A stretch of DNA of 64,000 nucleotides from Plantibacter flavus (GTDB lineage: Bacteria; Actinomycetota; Actinomycetes; Actinomycetales; Microbacteriaceae). The stretch is from positions 868,001 to 932,000 of the forward strand of contig NZ_CP019402.1 in NCBI RefSeq assembly GCF_002024505.1, given 5' to 3'. The notes beneath the pieces are model-generated. The model was given only the letters and a program-made list of their open reading frames with translations, searched no databases and was not told the DNA's origin. Below are positions 14,461-24,884 of the stretch, in pieces (positions within the stretch are counted from its first letter, which is position 1; each line of letters opens with the position of its first letter). The translations under genes were made by a program, and so were the position numbers.

Positions 14461-16056
14461 ATGGCACCGACGCTGCAGGACCTCCTCGACCACCGTGCGC
14501 TCGGCCTGAAGCTCGTGGTGGCAGGAACCGAGGGCGCCCTCGACCGGCAGGTCGCCTGGGTCTCCGGGTCGGACCTGCCGGACCCCACGCCCTTCCTCCT
14601 CGCCGACCAGGTGCTGCTCACGACGGGCACGCAGTTCGGGACCGCTGTGTCGACGACGCAGGTCGAGGCGTACGTCGCCCGCCTCGCCGACGCCGGTGTC
14701 GCCGGACTGGGGTTCGGTACCGAGGTGATCACGGCCGGGACACCGCCGGAACTCGCCGAGGCCTGCGCGGCGCACGGGATGCCGCTCGTCGAGGTCCCGT
14801 ACCGCACGCCGTTCATCGCCGTCATCCGGTACGCGGCCGACCTCCTCACCGAGGCGGCTCGGGCGAGGGACGCCTGGGCACTGGGCGCCCAGCGCGCGAT
14901 CGCGTTCGCCGCGCTCCGCCCCAACGCGACGGTCGCCGTCGTCACCGAACTCGCGCGGTCCCTCGGCGCCTGGGTCGTGCTCTTCGACGCGCACGCGACC
15001 CCGGTGGCGATCGCGGGCGACGGGCCCACCGCCGCTCCCGAGGCCGAGCGCCTCCTGGAGCGGGTGGCCGGCGAGGCCACCATGCTCCTGAGCCGCGGAC
15101 AGCGTTCGGGGGCGACGCTCGCGAGCCGCACGCGGACGGTGTCGCTGCAGACCCTCGGCCGACGCGGCGACCTCCGGGGCGTGCTCGCCATCGCCGGGAC
15201 CGACGGCCCGTTGGACGCCGCGGCCCAGAGCGTCGTGACCTCGGTCGTCGCCATCGCCGGGCTCACCCTCGAGCAGGGCGGCGCACTCGGACGGGCGGGG
15301 CGCTCGCTGCGCACCGGTGTCTGGCAGCTGCTCCGCGCCGGACAGGCCGCCGCGGCGCGCGAGGTCGCCGAACAGCTCGGCACGCCGTTGCCGAGCGGAG
15401 CTGTTCGTGTCGGCGTCTGCTCCGGGCCGACCGACGGGCGCGAGGCGCTCCTCACCGAGCTGGAACGGGCCGAGACGCTCGGTCCGGGTTCGCTCTTCGT
15501 CGCCGAGCAGGACGGACGGCCCGTCCTGCTTCTCGCAGCGGCTGAGGGGGACACCGAGACGGACGTCGATCGGGCGGTCGAGGCGGTGATCGCGGCGGCC
15601 CCCGCACGGCGGCTCGGACTCTCCCGATCCCTCGCGCTCGCCGATCTGCCGACGGGGATCGAGCAGGCGGTCTCCGCGCACGAGCACGCCGTCTCCGCAG
15701 GCGAGGCCGTCGTGCGGTTCGGGGCGCTCGCCGCGGCAGGGATGGCAGGGTTGCTCGACCCCGTCCGCGCCGCCGCCGTGGCCGAGGAACTGCTCGAGCC
15801 CGTGCTCCGCGTCGACCGCGAGGAGGGCTCCGACCTCGTGCCGAGCCTCCGCGGCTGGCTCGAGGCGAACGGCCAGTGGGAGCCCGCCGCGCGGCGACTC
15901 GGGATCCATCGACACACGCTCCGCAACCGCATCACCCGGGTGGAACAGGTGCTCGGGCGACCGCTCGACACCTTCGCCGCTCGGGCCGAACTCTGGCTCG
16001 CGCTGGCCAGCCTGCCGGACGGGGATGCGTTGCGGTCCCGCGAGGCCGTTCTGTAG
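14461..16056 (+). CDS. PucR-family transcriptional regulator (GABA/putrescine control)
   Basis: 531 residues in the PucR layout. The N-terminal PucR ligand domain (MAPTLQDLLDHRALGLKLV to about 130) is followed by a middle GGDEF-like region and a C-terminal HTH_30 helix-turn-helix (ARRLGIHRHTLRNRITRVEQVLGRPLDTF). Such proteins activate purine, GABA or amine catabolism genes when the substrate is present. It is divergent from gabT with 156 bases between starts, so GABA or putrescine is the likely signal. Its promoter is leaderless. Family certain; effector inferred from the neighbours. Confidence 0.88.
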   Translation: MAPTLQDLLDHRALGLKLVVAGTEGALDRQVAWVSGSDLPDPTPFLLADQVLLTTGTQFGTAVSTTQVEAYVARLADAGVAGLGFGTEVITAGTPPELAEACAAHGMPLVEVPYRTPFIAVIRYAADLLTEAARARDAWALGAQRAIAFAALRPNATVAVVTELARSLGAWVVLFDAHATPVAIAGDGPTAAPEAERLLERVAGEATMLLSRGQRSGATLASRTRTVSLQTLGRRGDLRGVLAIAGTDGPLDAAAQSVVTSVVAIAGLTLEQGGALGRAGRSLRTGVWQLLRAGQAAAAREVAEQLGTPLPSGAVRVGVCSGPTDGREALLTELERAETLGPGSLFVAEQDGRPVLLLAAAEGDTETDVDRAVEAVIAAAPARRLGLSRSLALADLPTGIEQAVSAHEHAVSAGEAVVRFGALAAAGMAGLLDPVRAAAVAEELLEPVLRVDREEGSDLVPSLRGWLEANGQWEPAARRLGIHRHTLRNRITRVEQVLGRPLDTFAARAELWLALASLPDGDALRSREAVL

Positions 16057-16110
16057 CCTCGACCGCACGGCGCGCGTGTGCTCCGTGGAACCACGAAGGG
16101 GGCGGCGCGC

Positions 16111-18162
16111 ATGAGGATCCGAACGGTGGTCGCCCGGGTGCCGGTCACGATCGCCCTGGTGCTGGTCGTCCTCGTCGTGGGTGTCGTCGGGCGTGGCCTC
16201 TGGGAGTCGACGACGGCGCAACCGTGGTGGGACGCGGTCGCCTACGGCCTGCCCGCCTTCGAGGCCGGGCGCTGGTGGACTCCCGTCACCGGGACGTTCC
16301 TCGTCGTGGAGCCGTGGGCCTACGTGTTCGCGGTGATCGGGTTCGCCTGGGTCGGCCTGCTGGAGTGGTGGCGGGGATCGAAGGTCGCGCTCATCACCTT
16401 CGCCGCCGGTCAGCTCGTCGCCGTCCTCGCCACCGCCGGGTTCCTCTGGGCCGCGAGTCAACTGCCCTGGCCGTGGGCGGCGAGCCTCGCCGGGATGCTC
16501 GACGTCGGTCCCTCCGGCGGGACGATGGCGTGCTTCGCCGCGTGCGTGTCGCTCTTCGCCTCTCCGTGGCGGCAGCGGGGCTGGATCATCGTCGCGTCCT
16601 ACGCCGCGATCGGGGTCCTCTTCATCGGGTCGCTCGCGGACCTCGAGCACGCCTTCGCGGTGCTCTTCGTCCTCGCGGTGAACCGTTCCTTCCGCATCCA
16701 GCGGGCCAGTGTGCGCGAGCGCCGACTGCTCGCGTTCACGACTAGTGTGGCCCTCGGCGTCGTCCAGATCGTCGCCCTACTCGTGCCGACCAACGGCCCG
16801 TTCGGTCCGACCGCTCCGGCGGAGGGCCCGTGGCTCGACGTCGCGATCGACACGGTGGTGATCATCGTGGTCGCCAACGGCCTGCGGCTCGGTCGTCGCT
16901 GGGCGTGGGTGCTGAGCGTCGTCTGGGCGATCCTCAACGTCCTGGTCGCGGTCCTGTACCTGGCGCTGTCGCCGCTCGATCCCGCCGACCTCCCGATCGA
17001 CTGGGGCGACACCGACGTGTTCCTGGCGACGTCGGTGCTCTGGCTCGCCTTCCTGGTCTACCTCGTCGCGACCCGCAGCGCGTTCTCATCCCACCGACGC
17101 CGACAGCTCGGCGTCGGGCGCAAGCAGCAGCAGGACCTGCCGTCGGCGGACGACGCCCGCGCGCTCATCCGGACCAAGGGCGGCGGCTCGCTCTCCTGGA
17201 TGGCCACGTGGGACGGCATGGAGTACTTCCGCACCTCGGTGGGCCTCGTGCCCTACCAGAAGCACGCCGGTGTCGCGATCGTGCTGGCCGACCCGCTCGG
17301 CCCACCGGATCACCTGCAGGCGAGCGTCGCGGAGTTCGTCCAGGCGGCCGAGCGCGACTCCCTCATCCCGTGCTTCTTCAGTTCCAGCCAGGGGACGAAG
17401 GACGCGATGCCCGAGGGATGGCGCGACCTCATCATCGCGGACGACACGATCGTCGACCTTCCCGGTCTCGCGTTCACCGGCAAGGCCTGGTCGAACATCC
17501 GCACGGCGCTCAACAAGGCCGAGCGCGAGGGGATGGTCTTCCGGATGAGCACCTACGCCGCCGAGACGTGGGGCGTCCGACAGCAGATCCGCGCCATCTC
17601 CGAGGGCTGGGTCGGCGACAAGGGTCTGCCGGAGATGCGGTTCACCCTCGGGACCCTGCAGGAGGCCGACGACCCCGAGGTCCGTCTGGCACTCGCGATC
17701 TCGCCGGACGGCGACGTCGACGGCTTCCTCAGCTGGCTCCCGGTCTTCGGCCCCGACGGCGAGCACCGCGGATGGACGCTCGACCTCATGCGGCGCCGCG
17801 AGGAGGGCTTCGGTTCGGTCATGGAGTTCCTCATCGCCTCCTCGGCCAAGGTCTTCGCCGAGGAGGGCGCGCAGATCCTCTCGCTCTCGGGTGCGCCGCT
17901 CGCACACCGGGTGGAGGACGACGAGGGCCGCATCGCGCACCTGCTGGGTCAGCTCAGCGGCATCCTGGAGCCCGTGTACGGCTTCTCGTCCCTCCACCGG
18001 TTCAAGCAGAAGTTCAACCCGCGATCGGAGCCGATCTACCTCCTGTACCGCGACGAGGGCGACCTCACGCGGATCGCGGCGGCGCTCACCCGTGCGTTCC
18101 TGCCGGACGCGACCCTCCGGCAGTTCGCCGGCGCCGGCATCGACATGCTCAAGCGCGACTGA
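16111..18162 (+). CDS. Rhomboid-like membrane domain fused to DUF2156 (aminoacyl-lipid synthase type)
   Basis: 683 residues. The N-terminal half has about eight membrane segments and resembles a rhomboid: GRWWTPVTGTFLV, then GPSGGTMACFAA (S135) and ADLEHAFAVL (H180), in the order of a rhomboid Ser-His dyad. The cytoplasmic C-terminal half (about 340-683) is a DUF2156/LPG_synthase_C acyltransferase fold with GGGSLSWMATWDGMEYF, GKAWSNIRTALNKAEREG, GFLSWLPVF and YGFSSLHRFKQKFNPR. In MprF and LysX this fold moves an amino acid from aminoacyl-tRNA to phosphatidylglycerol. The start at ATG 16111 follows GAAGGGGG. It is convergent, 13 bases apart, with a shortened alanyl-tRNA synthetase paralogue. 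Lipid alanylation is inferred. Confidence 0.8.
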   Translation: MRIRTVVARVPVTIALVLVVLVVGVVGRGLWESTTAQPWWDAVAYGLPAFEAGRWWTPVTGTFLVVEPWAYVFAVIGFAWVGLLEWWRGSKVALITFAAGQLVAVLATAGFLWAASQLPWPWAASLAGMLDVGPSGGTMACFAACVSLFASPWRQRGWIIVASYAAIGVLFIGSLADLEHAFAVLFVLAVNRSFRIQRASVRERRLLAFTTSVALGVVQIVALLVPTNGPFGPTAPAEGPWLDVAIDTVVIIVVANGLRLGRRWAWVLSVVWAILNVLVAVLYLALSPLDPADLPIDWGDTDVFLATSVLWLAFLVYLVATRSAFSSHRRRQLGVGRKQQQDLPSADDARALIRTKGGGSLSWMATWDGMEYFRTSVGLVPYQKHAGVAIVLADPLGPPDHLQASVAEFVQAAERDSLIPCFFSSSQGTKDAMPEGWRDLIIADDTIVDLPGLAFTGKAWSNIRTALNKAEREGMVFRMSTYAAETWGVRQQIRAISEGWVGDKGLPEMRFTLGTLQEADDPEVRLALAISPDGDVDGFLSWLPVFGPDGEHRGWTLDLMRRREEGFGSVMEFLIASSAKVFAEEGAQILSLSGAPLAHRVEDDEGRIAHLLGQLSGILEPVYGFSSLHRFKQKFNPRSEPIYLLYRDEGDLTRIAAALTRAFLPDATLRQFAGAGIDMLKRD

Positions 18163-18175
18163 GCGAGGCCGGCCC

Positions 18176-19606
18176 TCAGGCGGTGTCGCCGCCCGGGAGT
18201 CCCGCTGCGCCGAGGTGCGTCGCCCCGCGGGACCGCGCTCGCTGCTCGGCGAGGGCGGCGGCGAACTCCGCCTCCCAATCGGGAGCGACCTCGATGCCGA
18301 GGCGCCCGGCCTCCTCGAGGGTCAGCTCCTTCGGGAAGCCGTTCGTGTCGGACAGCCGGAACACGTCGTGTCCCGTCATGACCCGCCCGGCGTACCCCTG
18401 GACCATCTGGAGCCCTGCGCCCAGCGTGCGTCGGAACGACTGCTCCTCCTTGACGAGGACGGCGACGACCTCATTGCGGGCGGCGGCCACCTCCGGGTAG
18501 TCGTCGGCGTACAGTCCGGCGATGACGGGCACGATCTCGCCGAAGAAGTTCTCGTGGAGGTCGAGCGAGAGCGCGAGCCGAATCGCCCGTCGGAGCAGTC
18601 GTCGCATGACGTAGCCCTGCTCCTTGTTCGACGGACGCACGCCGTCCACCGCCAGGAAGGTCGCACCCCGCAGGTGGTCGGCGATGATGCGCATCGCGGC
18701 GGTCTCGTCCTCGTAGCGTTTCCCGGTGAGCTCCTGGAGTCGCTCGACGATGGGCCACAGGAGCGAGATGCGGAAGACGTCGTCGGAGTCGATCGACGCG
18801 GCGGCGATGCGTTCGAGGCCGCCGCCGAAGTCGACGTTGCGTCTGGCGAGTTCCTCGAACGAGCCGTCCTCGCGCCGTCGGTACTGCATGAACACCTGGT
18901 TGCCGATCTCCATGAACCGTCCGCCGTCGCTCGCGGGATGCGCGAGGCCGTACGACGGGTCCTGGAACTCGGGGCCGAAGTCGTAGAACACCTCGCTGTC
19001 GGGGCCGCACGGGTCGCCGATCGGTGTGCCCTCGAGTGACCCGCCGCGGGACCACCAGTTCTCGCCGCCGTCGTAGAAGAAGATCCGCTCACCGGGCCGC
19101 ACCCCGCGGGCGTCGCCGTCGGCCTGGGAGCCGATCTCCGCGATCCCGTTGGAGACCCCGCGCTCGGCGAACACCGACGCCCAGATCGAGGCGGCCTCGT
19201 CGTCGCGCGGGATGCCGTTCGCGGGATCGCCGATGAAGCAGGTGACGGAGATCCGCTCCGGATCCAGTCCGACGATGTCGACCAGGAAGGTGAAGAACTG
19301 CCGGATCTGCGTCTCCTTGAAGTAGTCGCCGAGCGACCAGTTGCCGAGCATCTCGAAGAAGGTGGTGTGCCGGTTGTCGCCGACGTCCTCGATGTCCTGG
19401 GCCCGGACGCACGGCTGGCTGTCGGTCAACCGCCGTCCGTCGGGGTGATCCTCACCGAGGAGGAACGGCAGGAGCGCCTGCATCCCGCTGCCGTTGAAGA
19501 GGGTGCTCGTGTCGCCGCGCGGTACGAGCGGAGCCCGCTTGATCAACGCGTGGCCGTTCCGTTCGAGGAAGTCGAGGTAGGCGTTCCGGATGTCGTGGGC
19601 GTCCAT
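18176..19606 (-). CDS. Shortened alanyl-tRNA synthetase paralogue without editing domain
   Basis: 476 residues against about 870-890 for housekeeping AlaRS. The class II catalytic core is intact: motif-1 region LVPRGDTSTLFNGSGMQ, then RHTTFFEMLGNWSLGDYFKE (motif 2), then VDFGGGLERIAAA (motif 3). The tRNA-recognition helical domain follows (GVRPSNKEQGYVMRRLLRRAIR) to about residue 455. The editing (SAD) and C-Ala domains are absent. The protein should make Ala-AMP and possibly Ala-tRNA without proofreading. Its tail-to-tail neighbour is an aminoacyl-lipid-synthase-like protein, so supply of Ala-tRNA for lipid modification is a reasonable guess. An amino acid carrier-protein ligase role is the alternative. 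Confidence 0.85.
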   Translation of the reverse strand: MDAHDIRNAYLDFLERNGHALIKRAPLVPRGDTSTLFNGSGMQALLPFLLGEDHPDGRRLTDSQPCVRAQDIEDVGDNRHTTFFEMLGNWSLGDYFKETQIRQFFTFLVDIVGLDPERISVTCFIGDPANGIPRDDEAASIWASVFAERGVSNGIAEIGSQADGDARGVRPGERIFFYDGGENWWSRGGSLEGTPIGDPCGPDSEVFYDFGPEFQDPSYGLAHPASDGGRFMEIGNQVFMQYRRREDGSFEELARRNVDFGGGLERIAAASIDSDDVFRISLLWPIVERLQELTGKRYEDETAAMRIIADHLRGATFLAVDGVRPSNKEQGYVMRRLLRRAIRLALSLDLHENFFGEIVPVIAGLYADDYPEVAAARNEVVAVLVKEEQSFRRTLGAGLQMVQGYAGRVMTGHDVFRLSDTNGFPKELTLEEAGRLGIEVAPDWEAEFAAALAEQRARSRGATHLGAAGLPGGDTA

Positions 19607-19664: not shown

Positions 19665-20810
19665 TCAGTCCGCGTCGTGGAGTGACCGCAGGGCGGTCAC
19701 GACGTCGTCGTGCCAGCGGCGGGCCGCCGGGAGCACGCCGCCGAAGATCGGGGTGTCGTGCGTCGCGCCCAGGTACATCGTCCCGCTCGCGTCGACGCCG
19801 TCGGCCCGGAGCGCGGCGAGGTAGGCCGCGCCGTCGCCGCGGAGGGGGTCGTACTCGGCCGTGAGGATCACGGCGCGGGGGAGGTCCGCGTGCGACCGGG
19901 CGAGGAGGGGCGACGCGTGCGGTTCCTTCGCCTGACGTCGATCGAAGAGGTAGGTCTTCGCGACGGAACGCAGCTCCTTGATCGCGAAGATCCTCGGGAT
20001 GCCCATCTCCCGCACGGGACGGAGGTCGATGTGGCCGCCGGTGAGGTCCGTGACCGGCACTTCGAGCAGCTGGAGTCGGATGGGCAGCCGGCCGCGTTCG
20101 CGGTTCACGAGCGTGAGCGCCGCCGCGATGCTGCCGCCGGCGGACACCCCGGCGACGGCGATCCGCCGCGAGTCGATCCCGAGCGTCGCGGCCTCGGCGA
20201 ACAGCCACTCGAGCGCCGCGTGGGCCTGTTCCAGCTGGGTCGGGTACCGGTGCTCGGGAGCGAGCGCGTAGTCGACGGCGGCGATGACCACGCCGGCGTC
20301 GGCCGCCCGACGACGGAACCCCGCGTCGGTCGTCGGGTAGTCGATCCCGCCGATGCGGAACGCCCCACCGAAGAAGGACAGGACCGCGGGCACCGCCTGG
20401 TCTCCGTCGGCCGTGGGCGGGTGATAGAGCCGGATCCGGACGTCGGGGAAGCCGGCGACCGGGATCGTGTGCTCCTCGATGCGCAGCTCCGGGCCCGGGA
20501 CGCCGACGGTCGCGAGCTCCTTCTTGTCCCAGTTCCGCGCGGCCTTGCGGTGCTGTGCGCGTGTCTTCTTGCGGCGGGGTGCGGCGGTGGTGGCCTTCGC
20601 CGTCGGGCTCGAGGGCTTCGCCTTCGGTCCGGTGGCCTTCGGGGAGGTCGCCTTCGGGTCCGCAGCGGGAGCGGGCTTCGGGCGCGCGACGGTGGTCGTC
20701 TTCGGCCGCAGGAAGAAGGCCTTCGCCTGCTCGAGTGCGGTCGAGATGAGGTAGGCACGGTGCGTCCGCGCTCGTTCGACGAAGATCGGGTCGAGAGGCA
20801 AACGACTCAC
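19665..20810 (-). CDS. Alpha/beta hydrolase, HSL/arylacetamidase type, with basic linker
   Basis: 381 residues. The first ~100 hold a Lys/Pro/Ala/Thr-rich low-complexity stretch (about 35-95). The hydrolase domain follows: FFGGAFRIGG, GVSAGGSIAA (nucleophile serine), EYDPLRGDG (acid) and GATHDTPIF (histidine). The HSL oxyanion motif HGGG appears as FFGGA, so its first histidine is replaced, although the GG remains. It probably cleaves esters or amides in the cytoplasm, substrate unknown. It starts at GTG 20810 with AAGGCAGG upstream; a TAGACT -10 lies at complement 20843-20848. Confidence 0.85.
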   Translation of the reverse strand: MSRLPLDPIFVERARTHRAYLISTALEQAKAFFLRPKTTTVARPKPAPAADPKATSPKATGPKAKPSSPTAKATTAAPRRKKTRAQHRKAARNWDKKELATVGVPGPELRIEEHTIPVAGFPDVRIRLYHPPTADGDQAVPAVLSFFGGAFRIGGIDYPTTDAGFRRRAADAGVVIAAVDYALAPEHRYPTQLEQAHAALEWLFAEAATLGIDSRRIAVAGVSAGGSIAAALTLVNRERGRLPIRLQLLEVPVTDLTGGHIDLRPVREMGIPRIFAIKELRSVAKTYLFDRRQAKEPHASPLLARSHADLPRAVILTAEYDPLRGDGAAYLAALRADGVDASGTMYLGATHDTPIFGGVLPAARRWHDDVVTALRSLHDAD

Positions 20811-20941: not shown

Positions 20942-21072
20942 TGCCGCTCGTAACGTGATCACACGTACGGCACACAGCAGTGCCCGCGTCGGTCACTCGC
21001 GGTTCCGCTCCACCGGAGCCACGCGCGGAGCGGGCGGGTGCATCGGTCCTTCTGAAAGGTACGTCCCAGCAC

Positions 21073-21993
21073 ATGAAGCTCTCCCTCACCCGCGTCGCTG
21101 CGCTCGGCGCCGCCGCCCTCCTCTCGATCGGCCTGGCCGCCTGCTCGAGCGCCACCGCCAGCGACACCGGTTCCGCCGCGGCCGGGACCTTTGCGGTCGA
21201 CGACCAGACCCTCGTCTTCGGCGTCGTCCCCGACTCGGTCGACACGCAGACCAACTACCAGCCGCTCATGGACTACATCGCCCAGGAGACCGGCAAGAAG
21301 GTCGAATACCACGAGTCGACCGACTACGCGGCCCTCATCGAGGCGGCCGTCGCCGGCAAGATCGACGTCGCGTCCTTCTCCGGCTTCACCTACGTCACCG
21401 CGCTCAACAACGGGGCCAAGATCACGCCGATCTCGTCGATCATCACCGTCGAGGGGCAGGAGCCGGGCTACTACTCCGAGGCGATCGTCCCGAAGGACTC
21501 GTCGATCACCAAGATCGAGGAGTTCAAGGGCAAGAAGGTCTGCTTCGTCGACCCGTCCTCGACGTCCGGGTACCTCTTCCCGAGCTACAACCTGCTCGAG
21601 GCCGGCATCGACCCCGAGCAGGACATCACCCCGGTCTTCGCCGGCAAGCACGACGTCTCGGTGACGAAGACCGCCGAGGGCGTCGAGTGCGAGGCGGGCT
21701 TCGCCGAGGACTCCGAGGTCGAGAAGAACGACGGCGTGAAGGTCATCGACCGCACGATGGTCCCCGGTGCGCCGATCGTCGAGTCCGACTCCCTGCCCGC
21801 CGACGTGAAGGAGAAGCTCGAGAAGGCCCTCTCCGAGGTCACGATCGACCAGATCATCGACTCCGGCGTGAAGAGCGCCGACAGCGACGCCTTCCGCGCG
21901 ACCTTCTACGGCACCTCGCCGGTCGACGACGCGTACTACGACACCATCCGCGACATCTGCAAGAAGACCAACGCCAAGCAGTGCCAGGCCTGA
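21073..21993 (+). CDS. phnD: Phosphonate ABC transporter, substrate-binding lipoprotein
   Basis: 306 residues. A lipoprotein signal ends at LAAC-S (C24), so the protein is anchored on the outer face of the membrane. The mature part is PhnD-type: LVFGVVPDSVDTQTNYQPLMDYI, YAALIEAAVAGKIDVASFSGFTYV, KKVCFVDPSSTSGYLFP, and CEAGFAEDSEVEK. It delivers phosphonate to the PhnC/PhnE importer. The start at ATG 21073 is set by the signal peptide; GAAAGG is 14 bases upstream. It heads the operon, behind a PHO-box-like repeat and ahead of a large hairpin that separates it from phnC. Confidence 0.93.
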   Translation: MKLSLTRVAALGAAALLSIGLAACSSATASDTGSAAAGTFAVDDQTLVFGVVPDSVDTQTNYQPLMDYIAQETGKKVEYHESTDYAALIEAAVAGKIDVASFSGFTYVTALNNGAKITPISSIITVEGQEPGYYSEAIVPKDSSITKIEEFKGKKVCFVDPSSTSGYLFPSYNLLEAGIDPEQDITPVFAGKHDVSVTKTAEGVECEAGFAEDSEVEKNDGVKVIDRTMVPGAPIVESDSLPADVKEKLEKALSEVTIDQIIDSGVKSADSDAFRATFYGTSPVDDAYYDTIRDICKKTNAKQCQA

Positions 21994-21996
21994 TCT

Positions 21997-22060
21997 GAGC
22001 ACCGGCACCGCCCTTCGACAAGCGGTTCCTGAGCTTGTCGAAGGGCAGTGACCGGTGCTC
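21997..22060 (+). repeat. Two-tier hairpin between phnD and phnC, built from the intergenic repeat
   Basis: Inner stem: CCCTTCGACAAGC (22011-22023) pairs with GCTTGTCGAAGGG (22033-22045) around a 9-base loop. Outer stem: GAGCACCGG (21997-22005) pairs with CCGGTGCTC (22052-22060). It may protect phnD mRNA or partly terminate transcription, so that more PhnD than transporter is made. Confidence 0.75.
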
Positions 22061-22131
22061 CGGTTCCCGGTCACCGAGCCCGTCGCGGTGCGACGTCCGC
22101 ATCACCACCAACCTCACGAGAGGCAGCAGTC

Positions 22132-23127
22132 ATGAGCGTCACCGAGCAGCAGGCGCGTCACACCGCACCCGACGGAGCGGAACCGCTCGTGCGTCTCCGC
22201 GGGGTCACGAAGCGCTTCGACCGGACGGTCGCCCTGCAGCGCGTCGACCTCGACATCCGTCGCGGTGAGATCGTCGTCCTCCTCGGCCTGTCGGGATCCG
22301 GCAAGTCGACGCTCCTCCGTCACCTGGACGGTCTCGAGCGGCCCACCGCCGGGTCCGTCTCGGTCCTCGGCGACGAGGTGCCGGCCCTCGGGCAGCGCGC
22401 CCTGCGCCGGCTCCGCGCCCGCGTCGGGTTCGTCTTCCAGCAGTTCGAGCTGGTCCCGTCGCTCACCGTCCTCGAGAACGTCCTGACCGGTTCGCTGGCG
22501 GGCGTCCGCGGACCACGTCTCGGCATCCTCGGCTACGGCCGCAACCTGAAGATGAAGGCGCTCGGCCACCTCGATCGCGTCGGCCTCCTGGAGCGCGCCT
22601 ACCAGCGCGCCGACACCCTCTCCGGTGGTCAGCAGCAGCGCGTGGCCATCGCCAGAGCGCTCATGCAGGACCCCGAGATCCTCCTCGCCGACGAGCCCGT
22701 CGCCTCCCTCGACCCGGAGTCGAGCGAGCAGGTGATGGCCCTCATTCGTGAGATCGCGATCGACCGTGGACTCACCGTCGTGTGCAGCCTGCACCAGGTC
22801 GACCTCGCGCTCTCCTGGGGCGACCGCATCGTCGGTCTCCGGCACGGCGAGGTGGTCCTCGACACCACGACCGACGGCCTGTCGAAGACCGAGGTGATGG
22901 AGATCTACGGCCGGGTCGCGACGAGCACCCGTGAGCTGCAGGCGATCGCCGTGGAGTTGGAGACCGACGAGCTGCTCGGCGACCCCGACGACGACCTCCG
23001 CGGCCTGCTCGGCGTCGAGGAGCGCGTGGGCGAGGACGAACTCCCCGACGAACCGGAGTGGGAGTTCGACGCCGATGTCGACGGCCGCGAGCCCGACGAG
23101 CTCCGTCGACCTGGCAGGACCCGCTGA
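22132..23127 (+). CDS. phnC: Phosphonate ABC transporter ATP-binding protein
   Basis: 331 residues, longer than the usual ~260 because of a C-terminal acidic extension (about 280-331). The ATPase is complete: Walker A GLSGSGKSTLL, Q-loop VFQQFEL, signature LSGGQQQRVAIARAL, Walker B ILLADEPVASLD and H-loop CSLHQVDLAL. MSVTEQQ at 22132 is preferred over longer frames because GAGAGG lies eight bases upstream and because the gap holds the hairpin. TGATG couples it to the permease gene. Confidence 0.94.
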   Translation: MSVTEQQARHTAPDGAEPLVRLRGVTKRFDRTVALQRVDLDIRRGEIVVLLGLSGSGKSTLLRHLDGLERPTAGSVSVLGDEVPALGQRALRRLRARVGFVFQQFELVPSLTVLENVLTGSLAGVRGPRLGILGYGRNLKMKALGHLDRVGLLERAYQRADTLSGGQQQRVAIARALMQDPEILLADEPVASLDPESSEQVMALIREIAIDRGLTVVCSLHQVDLALSWGDRIVGLRHGEVVLDTTTDGLSKTEVMEIYGRVATSTRELQAIAVELETDELLGDPDDDLRGLLGVEERVGEDELPDEPEWEFDADVDGREPDELRRPGRTR

Positions 23128-24884
23128 TGGTCGTCACCGCGCCCGCGAAGACGGCACCGCCCGCCGACCGCCCGCCCGGACTCTCCGGACCCGTCCCGGT
23201 CGGTCGGCTCCGCCCGCAGACGATCGCCGCCGTGCTCACGCTCGTCGCGCTGCTCGCGTTCTCGGTCTACTCGCTCCTCGAGGTCGGGATCTCGATCCCG
23301 AACATGGTGGCGAGCTGGGGCAACGCGGTCAACTTCTTCAACCGGGTGGGGACGATCACGTTCCCGCCGCCCGGGGAACTGCTGTCGCTCACCGCCCTGA
23401 CCCTGGGGATCGTGATCTCCGGCACCGTCCTCGCTGCGGTGCTCTCCATCCCGGTCGCGTACCTCGCAGCCGCCAACACGACCCCGGGACCGGCCTGGCG
23501 CGCAGTCGGTCGGTTCATCGGCGTGCTCAGCCGTGCCGTGCCGGACGTCGTCATCGCGATGATCCTCGTGCTCATGTTCTCGCTCGGATCGCTGCCCGGC
23601 ATCATCGCGATCGGGCTGCACTCCGTCGGGATGATCTCGAAGCTCTTCGCGGACGCGATCGAGCAGGTCGACGAAGGGCCGCGACTCGCGATCCGGGCAG
23701 CCGGCGGCTCGAAGCTGCAGGAGTTCACCTCGGGCGTCCTGCCGCAGGTCCTTCCGTCCTGGGTGGCCACGGTCCTCCACCGCGGCGACATCAACCTGCG
23801 CGGTTCGGTCCTGCTCGGCTACGTCGGCGTCCTCGGCCTCGGCCGTGAGCTGTCGCTCGCGTTCAAATCACTCGACTACTCGCTCGGCATCGGACTCGCG
23901 ATCGTCATCTTCGCGCTGTGCGTCGTCATGGAGATCGTGTCGAGCACCGTGCGCACCGTGATGCTCGGGGTGCAGCCGACCGGACGCGGACTCGGTGACC
24001 GCGTCGTGCGTCGGGTGGCCGCGGGTCGGGACGCGCGTCGCGCGGTGAATGGGAGCAGTCGGACGACCGCTGCTCCGAGCGCCGAGTCCCGGATCGCCGC
24101 TGCGGCGAAGCGACCCTGGACGCCGGCCCGCGTTCGCGACACCGTCGGTGCCTGGCTCGCCGTGGCGGTGGTGGTCTGGGGCGTCGTCGTGTCCGACATC
24201 CAGTGGGGCGACCTCGTGACGTTCTGGGCGAAGGCGCCCGACGTCCTCGCCCGTCTCTGGCCGCCGTCGTTCGGCATGCGCACGACGGAGCAGATGGTCG
24301 AGGCGATGTTCGAGACCGTCGCGATCGCCTTCGCGGCGACCCTCATCGCCCTCGTCTGCTCGATCGTCATCGGGTCCCTCGCCGCACGGAACGTCGCCCC
24401 GAACCGTGGTGTCCGCACCGGCGCCCGGTTCGCGCTCGTCGGCATCCGCGGCATCCCGGAGCTCATCCTCGCGATCCTGCTCATCGTCGTCACCGGGCTC
24501 GGTGCCCAGGCGGGGACGCTCGCGCTCGGCGTCTGCGGGATCGGCCTCCTCGGCAAGCTCATCGCCGACTCCTTCGAGGAGGTCGCGCCCGGACCGGAAC
24601 GGGCGCTGATCGCCGTCGGGGCGACCCGACCGCAGGTCTACGCCGCCGCGACCCTCCCGCAGGGGGCCCGCGCGCTGGTCGGGCACACCTTCTACACGCT
24701 CGACACGAACATCCGCGCCGCGACCATGCTCGGCATCGTCGGCGGAGGCGGCATCGGCTACTACCTGATCCAGGCGGACCAGGGCGGGAACTACGACCAG
24801 GTCACGGCCATCGTGCTGATGATCCTCGCGGTGGTCCTCGTCGTCGAGGGCATCGCCATGTGGATGCGGAGGGTGTTCTCGTGA
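23127..24884 (+). CDS. phnE: Fused phosphonate permease (two PhnE domains in one chain)
   Basis: 585 residues, about twice the size of a single PhnE (~270). Each half has a set of membrane helices and an EAA-type loop: EQVDEGPRLAIRAAGGSKLQEF in the first, EEVAPGPERALIAVGATRPQVY in the second. A cytoplasmic linker (about 295-345) joins them. One chain therefore forms the complete membrane pore, replacing the PhnE1/PhnE2 heterodimer. ATG 23127 overlaps the phnC stop (TGATG); the stop overlaps the next gene by GTGA. Confidence 0.92.
   Translation: MVVTAPAKTAPPADRPPGLSGPVPVGRLRPQTIAAVLTLVALLAFSVYSLLEVGISIPNMVASWGNAVNFFNRVGTITFPPPGELLSLTALTLGIVISGTVLAAVLSIPVAYLAAANTTPGPAWRAVGRFIGVLSRAVPDVVIAMILVLMFSLGSLPGIIAIGLHSVGMISKLFADAIEQVDEGPRLAIRAAGGSKLQEFTSGVLPQVLPSWVATVLHRGDINLRGSVLLGYVGVLGLGRELSLAFKSLDYSLGIGLAIVIFALCVVMEIVSSTVRTVMLGVQPTGRGLGDRVVRRVAAGRDARRAVNGSSRTTAAPSAESRIAAAAKRPWTPARVRDTVGAWLAVAVVVWGVVVSDIQWGDLVTFWAKAPDVLARLWPPSFGMRTTEQMVEAMFETVAIAFAATLIALVCSIVIGSLAARNVAPNRGVRTGARFALVGIRGIPELILAILLIVVTGLGAQAGTLALGVCGIGLLGKLIADSFEEVAPGPERALIAVGATRPQVYAAATLPQGARALVGHTFYTLDTNIRAATMLGIVGGGGIGYYLIQADQGGNYDQVTAIVLMILAVVLVVEGIAMWMRRVFS

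Follow-up and report, generated by a model that had tools for sequence, protein, structure and literature searches.

LysX of mycobacteria and Corynebacterium, a lysyl-tRNA synthetase (LysRS) fused to an MprF/DUF2156 domain, exemplifies a class II synthetase paralogue that is dedicated to a DUF2156 lipid transferase and feeds it. In the formation of alanyl-diacylglycerol (Ala-DAG) and alanyl-phosphatidylglycerol (Ala-PG) by Corynebacterium glutamicum, a DUF2156 membrane enzyme, AlaDAGS, is joined by a putative esterase, PesT, reportedly encoded upstream of AlaDAGS (Smith et al. 2015); to our knowledge, no dedicated alanyl-tRNA synthetase (AlaRS) has been described for this pathway. In Corynebacterium pseudotuberculosis, loss of AlaDAGS abolishes both Ala-DAG and Ala-PG, and the same study attributes to Ala-DAG synthesis no effect on growth, antibiotic resistance or virulence, calling its significance open (PMC10580965). 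Paralogous synthetases serving MprF-like GNAT ligases have been published for LysRS, seryl-tRNA synthetase (VlmL, paired with VlmA) and fungal aspartyl-tRNA synthetase (ErdS, fused to DUF2156), with dedicated synthetases for lipid aminoacylation described for lysine (LysX) and fungal aspartate (ErdS) (PMC2922099, PMC9437257). The window analysed here, a 64,000-nucleotide stretch of Plantibacter flavus (NZ_CP019402.1, positions 868,001 to 932,000), encodes a short AlaRS paralogue, hereafter AlaS-S, beside a rhomboid-like MprF/DUF2156 membrane protein (Table 1), and no description of an AlaRS paired or linked with DUF2156 turned up among the 8–20 titles listed per search of open-licence PubMed Central papers. 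The pair is best read as an alanine, two-gene version of the known scheme with an unusual origin: relative to LysX, the amino acid would be alanine rather than lysine, the two functions occupy separate genes, and the synthetase is of the candidate phyla radiation (CPR) type, whereas VlmL/VlmA and ErdS use other amino acids and acceptors.

Pfam assigns the AlaRS catalytic and tRNA-recognition core (PF01411) to AlaS-S residues 5–462 at 358 bits (cut-off 30.3), and neither the editing domain (PF07973) nor the C-terminal domain is matched at E 0.001, so that the truncated AlaRS lacking editing and C-Ala domains proposed in the original prediction is borne out. The missing PF07973 match also separates AlaS-S from AlaX, the free-standing editing factor, and its 366 bits fall below the NCBIfam equivalog cut-offs for canonical editing AlaRS of 457 (TIGR00344) and 529. 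Measured from a single anchor, the protein ends after 19 residues and all 43 AlaS-S collected end after 4–31, where ten full-length CPR-type enzymes extend for 169–178. The opposite (plus) strand is interrupted by a stop, and the same genome encodes a second, full AlaRS of 884 residues. Three of the four other sampled genomes of the genus carry AlaS-S at 98–99% identity and the fourth (G120) has no copy; dN/dS is 0.06–0.07 inside the genus and ∼0.14 against a relative from genus group g77 (dN 0.102, dS 0.726).

The catalytic motifs, likewise predicted to be kept, are present in the window protein as R68, H80 and E85 of motif 2, the alanine-pocket positions W185, N236, D259 and G261, and R266 of motif 3, all of them invariant in 43/43 AlaS-S, and the positions matching readers of the G3:U70 pair are kept in 41/43 (N327) and 42/43 (D420). 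The roles of these residues follow the AlaRS literature, and their correspondence is supported by alignment to solved AlaRS structures of E. coli, Aquifex and other organisms. With adenylation and G3:U70-recognition residues intact, AlaS-S is inferred to charge the tRNA-Ala of the cell. The same restriction to aminoacylation and tRNA-recognition domains, with neither editing nor C-Ala domain, characterises the Tupanvirus mini-AlaRS, reported to be active in vitro and in yeast (PMC10036535); AlaS-S differs in its near-universal N327 and D420 and in being nested among Saccharibacteria-type enzymes.

The partner, correctly anticipated as a DUF2156 neighbour lying tail to tail at a distance of 13 bases, comprises a rhomboid-like domain (∼18–207), further helices and an MprF/DUF2156 aminoacyl-tRNA:lipid transferase domain (∼343–675), with PF09924 covering residues 362–657 at 212 bits. 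This match and the synthase-domain fold beside membrane helices place it among MprF/DUF2156 transferases, its N-terminal part has the rhomboid fold, and the predicted structure supports the fold assignment in a VIA-align comparison confined to chains ranked by Foldseek. Scores against the bifunctional MprF equivalog (NF033480, 148.9 bits, cut-off 600) and LysX (NF002821, 105.6 bits, cut-off 742) are far below threshold, and a LysX-like way of working is better supported than strict family membership. A possible Ser-His dyad (S146/H191) is complete in 19 of 38 aligned homologues and altered in the remainder, and the rhomboid-like part may therefore drift between protease-like and pseudoprotease states.

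Linkage of the two genes recurs well beyond the window. Among 43 AlaS-S neighbourhoods (merged samples plus named contigs, with L003, L013 and L014 dropped as apparent duplicates of G203, G754 and G685), 25 have a DUF2156-family gene no more than 6 kb from AlaS-S, the rhomboid type in 23 and a true LysX in two. Of these linked genomes, 23 show a gap below 1.5 kb and 19 one below 0.5 kb. Orientations are mostly convergent, with divergent pairs at L128, L129, L130 and L306 and same-strand pairs at L123, L307 and L310. The two LysX proteins, from genomes of group g237 (possibly Rhodococcus), score 1732 and 1696 bits against NF002821. A PesT-like esterase lies within 6 kb in 16/43 loci, recalling the AlaDAGS/PesT pair, with PF00756 confirmed in all three tested by Pfam; at L127 it is itself the partner, 47 bp downstream of AlaS-S, the DUF2156 gene being elsewhere in the genome. 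Clustering of neighbours at 30 loci returned the DUF2156 protein as the most recurrent family (8/17 genus groups) after open reading frames (ORFs) overlapping AlaS-S. The DUF2156-linked label must change five times across the 29 labelled rows of the AlaS-S tree and seven times on the DUF2156 tree (73 hand-chosen rows, near-duplicates mostly dropped), so the pairing recurs. In a matched control, tblastn found no DUF2156 gene and no PesT-like gene at any of 30 full-length AlaRS loci of AlaS-S genomes (∼7 kb each side, two shortened by contig ends), a narrower control of ∼1.5 kb each side was likewise empty of both, and the same method recovers the DUF2156 and PesT-like links at AlaS-S loci. Chance or artefact as the source of AlaS-S is ruled out by its conservation, its dN/dS, the repeated linkage and this control.

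AlaS-S is patchily distributed (18/249 genomes of the family, 8/394 of the class, 16/201 of a second family), and a full AlaRS accompanies it in 30/30 genomes searched. Full-length rhomboid-DUF2156 proteins occur in 8/8 AlaS-S genomes versus 12/386 others in the class sample (Fisher p 9e-12), 13/18 versus 21/231 in the family (p 3e-9) and 12/16 versus 27/185 in the second family (p 6e-7), treating genomes as independent and with no correction for phylogeny, and the co-occurrence that had been proposed as a check on the pairing is thus found in all three samples. Three genomes of the class sample (G000, G142 and G194) also belong to the family sample, and one (G462) to the second family. Full-length type denotes a match of at least 40% identity spanning almost the entire query, as judged by hand; split or partial matches (G096 and G158 in the family, G771 in the second family) and one ending at residue 561 (G099) are also counted, a distant paralogue (∼33–36% identity, L085 type) is left out, and absences are upper bounds, since scoring was limited to the top few candidates in each genome. 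In all 12 second-family genomes with the rhomboid type, the gene lies within 2.3 kb of AlaS-S. Within genus group g1, a partner orthologue (P0002, at least 98% identity) occurs in 4/4 AlaS-S genomes and is absent from the sole genome devoid of AlaS-S; across g1, g77 and g5, genomes carry both genes together or, in G120 (g1), G077 and G238 (g77) and G004, G150 and G201 (g5), neither. The within-genus picture is mixed in g8 and g85, where several genomes carry the DUF2156 type and no AlaS-S. In group g216, the matches of five genomes of 2–3 Mb are confined to the C-terminal domain of the rhomboid-type protein.

Among the best 120 of 8000 matches, the top-scoring homologues are mostly of 470–490 residues (those named being Plantibacter, Herbiconiux, Agreia, Subtercola and one Corynebacterium), followed by proteins of 626–645 residues with an editing domain and 67–71% identity across almost the entire query; those of them with names are Saccharibacteria. 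An AlaRS tree of 79 rows (40 AlaS-S, 22 Saccharibacteria-like full-length, 16 other CPR-type and the host's own AlaRS as outgroup; the remaining AlaS-S of the second-family sample are left out) places AlaS-S at two positions, both within the Saccharibacteria-like full-length group: a clade of 28 rows (Microbacteriaceae, Brachybacterium, Brevibacterium and database proteins; support 86/92), which lies within two starred sets, of 42 and 45 rows, and one of 12 rows (Rhodococcus, Williamsia, Pseudonocardia and others; support 100/99). Constraining the truncation to a single origin costs 63 log-likelihood units and is disfavoured by the approximately unbiased test (p 0.012), tempered by long branches flagged by the tree program, some weak deeper forks and the moderate support of the larger clade; separate loss of editing in the two clades is favoured. 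These placements support acquisition of AlaS-S by horizontal transfer from a Saccharibacteria-type AlaRS, and rule out a decaying duplicate of the host AlaRS, which stands apart as a flagged long-branch outgroup. The window gene carries host base composition (69.0% GC, 92.2% at third positions; six Saccharibacteria-type genes have 44–52%), so the transfer would not be recent. Neither the CPR-type ancestry nor the apparently repeated truncation was part of the original prediction. Short CPR-type AlaRS of ∼585–612 residues were also observed in bins labelled Clostridia and relatives, Alphaproteobacteria and Methanomassiliicoccales-type archaea (L052, L053, L058, L059, L063, L066, L075, L077, L078, L080–L082).

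With moderate confidence, AlaS-S is regarded as a dedicated, editing-free source of Ala-tRNA for the alanylation of lipids, amounting to a two-gene alanine equivalent of LysX that derives from CPR-type bacteria and was built repeatedly. As a second, dedicated synthetase, it would make Ala-tRNA and pass it to the membrane protein encoded next to it. The cytosolic GNAT/MprF-type domain of that protein, judging from its family, would move alanine, at the inner leaflet, onto a hydroxyl group of diacylglycerol or phosphatidylglycerol; the rhomboid-like part may position or move the lipid, and PesT-like enzymes may carry out a second step. The editing domain would be dispensable, since an incorrect amino acid attached to a lipid is plausibly harmless and the full-length AlaRS of the same cell could proofread leaked Ser-tRNA-Ala. 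If true, the alanine version would show that aminoacyl-tRNA synthetases can be recruited to membrane chemistry repeatedly, would account for the tolerance of an editing-free AlaRS in cells retaining a proofreading one, and would make the role of Ala-DAG testable in harmless bacteria. It would also mean that a core translation gene moved from CPR-type bacteria into actinobacteria, which include known Saccharibacteria hosts (PMC12102498).

Several observations weigh against this assignment. AlaS-S is unlinked in 17/43 loci, a count including L012, L121 and L309, where the contig ends ∼0.6 kb or less downstream; a PF09924 gene occurs elsewhere in 15 of these 17 genomes, and none is matched in the other two, Brachybacterium massiliense and Brevibacterium sp. 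S111. The dedicated pairing originally proposed is partly supported, by linkage in 25/43 loci and by co-occurrence, and these exceptions speak against its being exclusive. Rhomboid-DUF2156 proteins also occur apart from AlaS-S in many genomes (the 12/386, 21/231 and 27/185 above) and so do not require it, and five AlaS-S genomes of the family (G011, G093, G155, G205 and G026) contain other DUF2156 genes and no rhomboid type at 40% identity or more. In two Rhodococcus loci, AlaS-S lies within a cobalamin locus, between cobN and cobG/cobH-like genes, and in Brachybacterium and Brevibacterium (L008, L012) it sits beside reductase-like and nrd-like genes, names given by reading the sequences, in a metal-uptake-like region; a cobalamin or ribonucleotide-reduction role, seen only there, is not general. 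The tRNA-recognition residues are altered in two linked loci (N327 and D420 in L130, N327 in L306), and the convergent genes of the window do not form a single operon. Linkage alone is no proof of alanine, since the LysX neighbours are lysine enzymes, and delivery of Ala-tRNA to a non-lipid acceptor, such as peptidoglycan, a natural product or some other substrate onto which the DUF2156 partner acts, is considered quite unlikely.

Intact catalytic and mostly intact tRNA-recognition residues, the full AlaRS present in all 30 genomes searched, the patchy distribution and the two genomes with no PF09924 match would also suit a spare or stress synthetase for translation, for example one resistant to AlaRS inhibitors, brought near DUF2156 genes by shared envelope-stress islands, and inhibitor-resistance duplicates of aminoacyl-tRNA synthetases are listed in PMC9437257. 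This explanation is judged unlikely, given recurrent linkage to rhomboid-DUF2156, LysX and PesT-like genes versus none at 30 full AlaRS loci, and given that loss of editing in all 43 copies would be odd for a translation enzyme. Far less probable still is an activity like that of AcmF from ascamycin biosynthesis, in which AlaS-S would transfer alanine from Ala-tRNA to a small molecule and charge no tRNA: AcmF shares the truncated catalytic and tRNA-recognition architecture, and its cluster includes an alpha/beta hydrolase, as found upstream of AlaS-S in the window, but AcmF, itself a transferase, has lost adenylation residues that AlaS-S keeps (PMC12945691). The N219Q and D232E changes of AcmF, reported there to disrupt adenylate formation, probably correspond, judging by the motifs, to N236 and D259, both retained in 43/43 AlaS-S, and none of the neighbouring genes read pointed to a biosynthetic cluster; AlaS-S thus falls outside the AcmF type, which is disfavoured. 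AcmF is reported to accept Ser- and Gly-tRNA-Ala (PMC12945691), and an unedited AlaS-S might likewise give rise to mixed aminoacyl lipids; an extended scenario in which Actinobacteria captured the AlaRS of episymbiotic Saccharibacteria at least twice, removed its proofreading half at a common point and paired it with membrane aminoacyl-lipid synthases, yielding mixed Ala/Ser/Gly lipids that alter the cell surface, is speculative and rather doubtful.

Table 1. Positions of the AlaS-S locus features in the window, and of compared loci on their own contigs
Feature	Position	Strand	Basis or remark
AlaS-S (476-residue AlaRS paralogue, CPR/Saccharibacteria type)	18176..19606	minus	ATG start; Pfam, NCBIfam, residues
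Rhomboid-like + MprF/DUF2156 membrane protein (694 residues)	16078..18162	plus	PF09924, model
Gap between the two stop codons, tail to tail	18163..18175	none	13 bases
HSL-type alpha/beta hydrolase (PF07859)	19665..20810	minus	58 bases upstream of AlaS-S, same strand
PucR-type regulator	14461..16056	plus	directly upstream of DUF2156 gene, same strand
AlaS-S + lysX loci, group g237	L307:7046-12162; L310:2460-8429	same strand	NF002821
AlaS-S neighbourhoods in Rhodococcus cobalamin loci	L015:4134-11238; L308:5139-12173		

The HSL-type hydrolase adjoins AlaS-S in three other loci of the genus and in none of the remaining loci of the neighbourhood set, and is rejected as a core component, probably standing outside the core pair. 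The PucR-type protein recurs in the genus loci L109–L111 and may regulate the DUF2156 gene. No dedicated tRNA-Ala gene was found nearby in the window or in 30 loci scanned, the 15 loci L301–L315 being outside the scan. Just past the hydrolase lies a phosphonate-type ABC transporter set (20980–24884), where an ARAGORN tRNA-Leu call (24578–24669, minus) overlaps a permease ORF.

Further DUF2156 genes were observed in the same genome (G000). A second one adjoins a PesT-like esterase (C1:1885502-1889259), an arrangement that perhaps corresponds to the Corynebacterium pair, and a third (C1:182474-208418) has a PesT-like gene ∼22.5 kb away. A VTT (DedA-type) domain is fused ahead of the present DUF2156 type at L123:9355-12132, L150:1477-4134 and L151:793-3561, and these fusions may represent three-part lipid-modifying enzymes.
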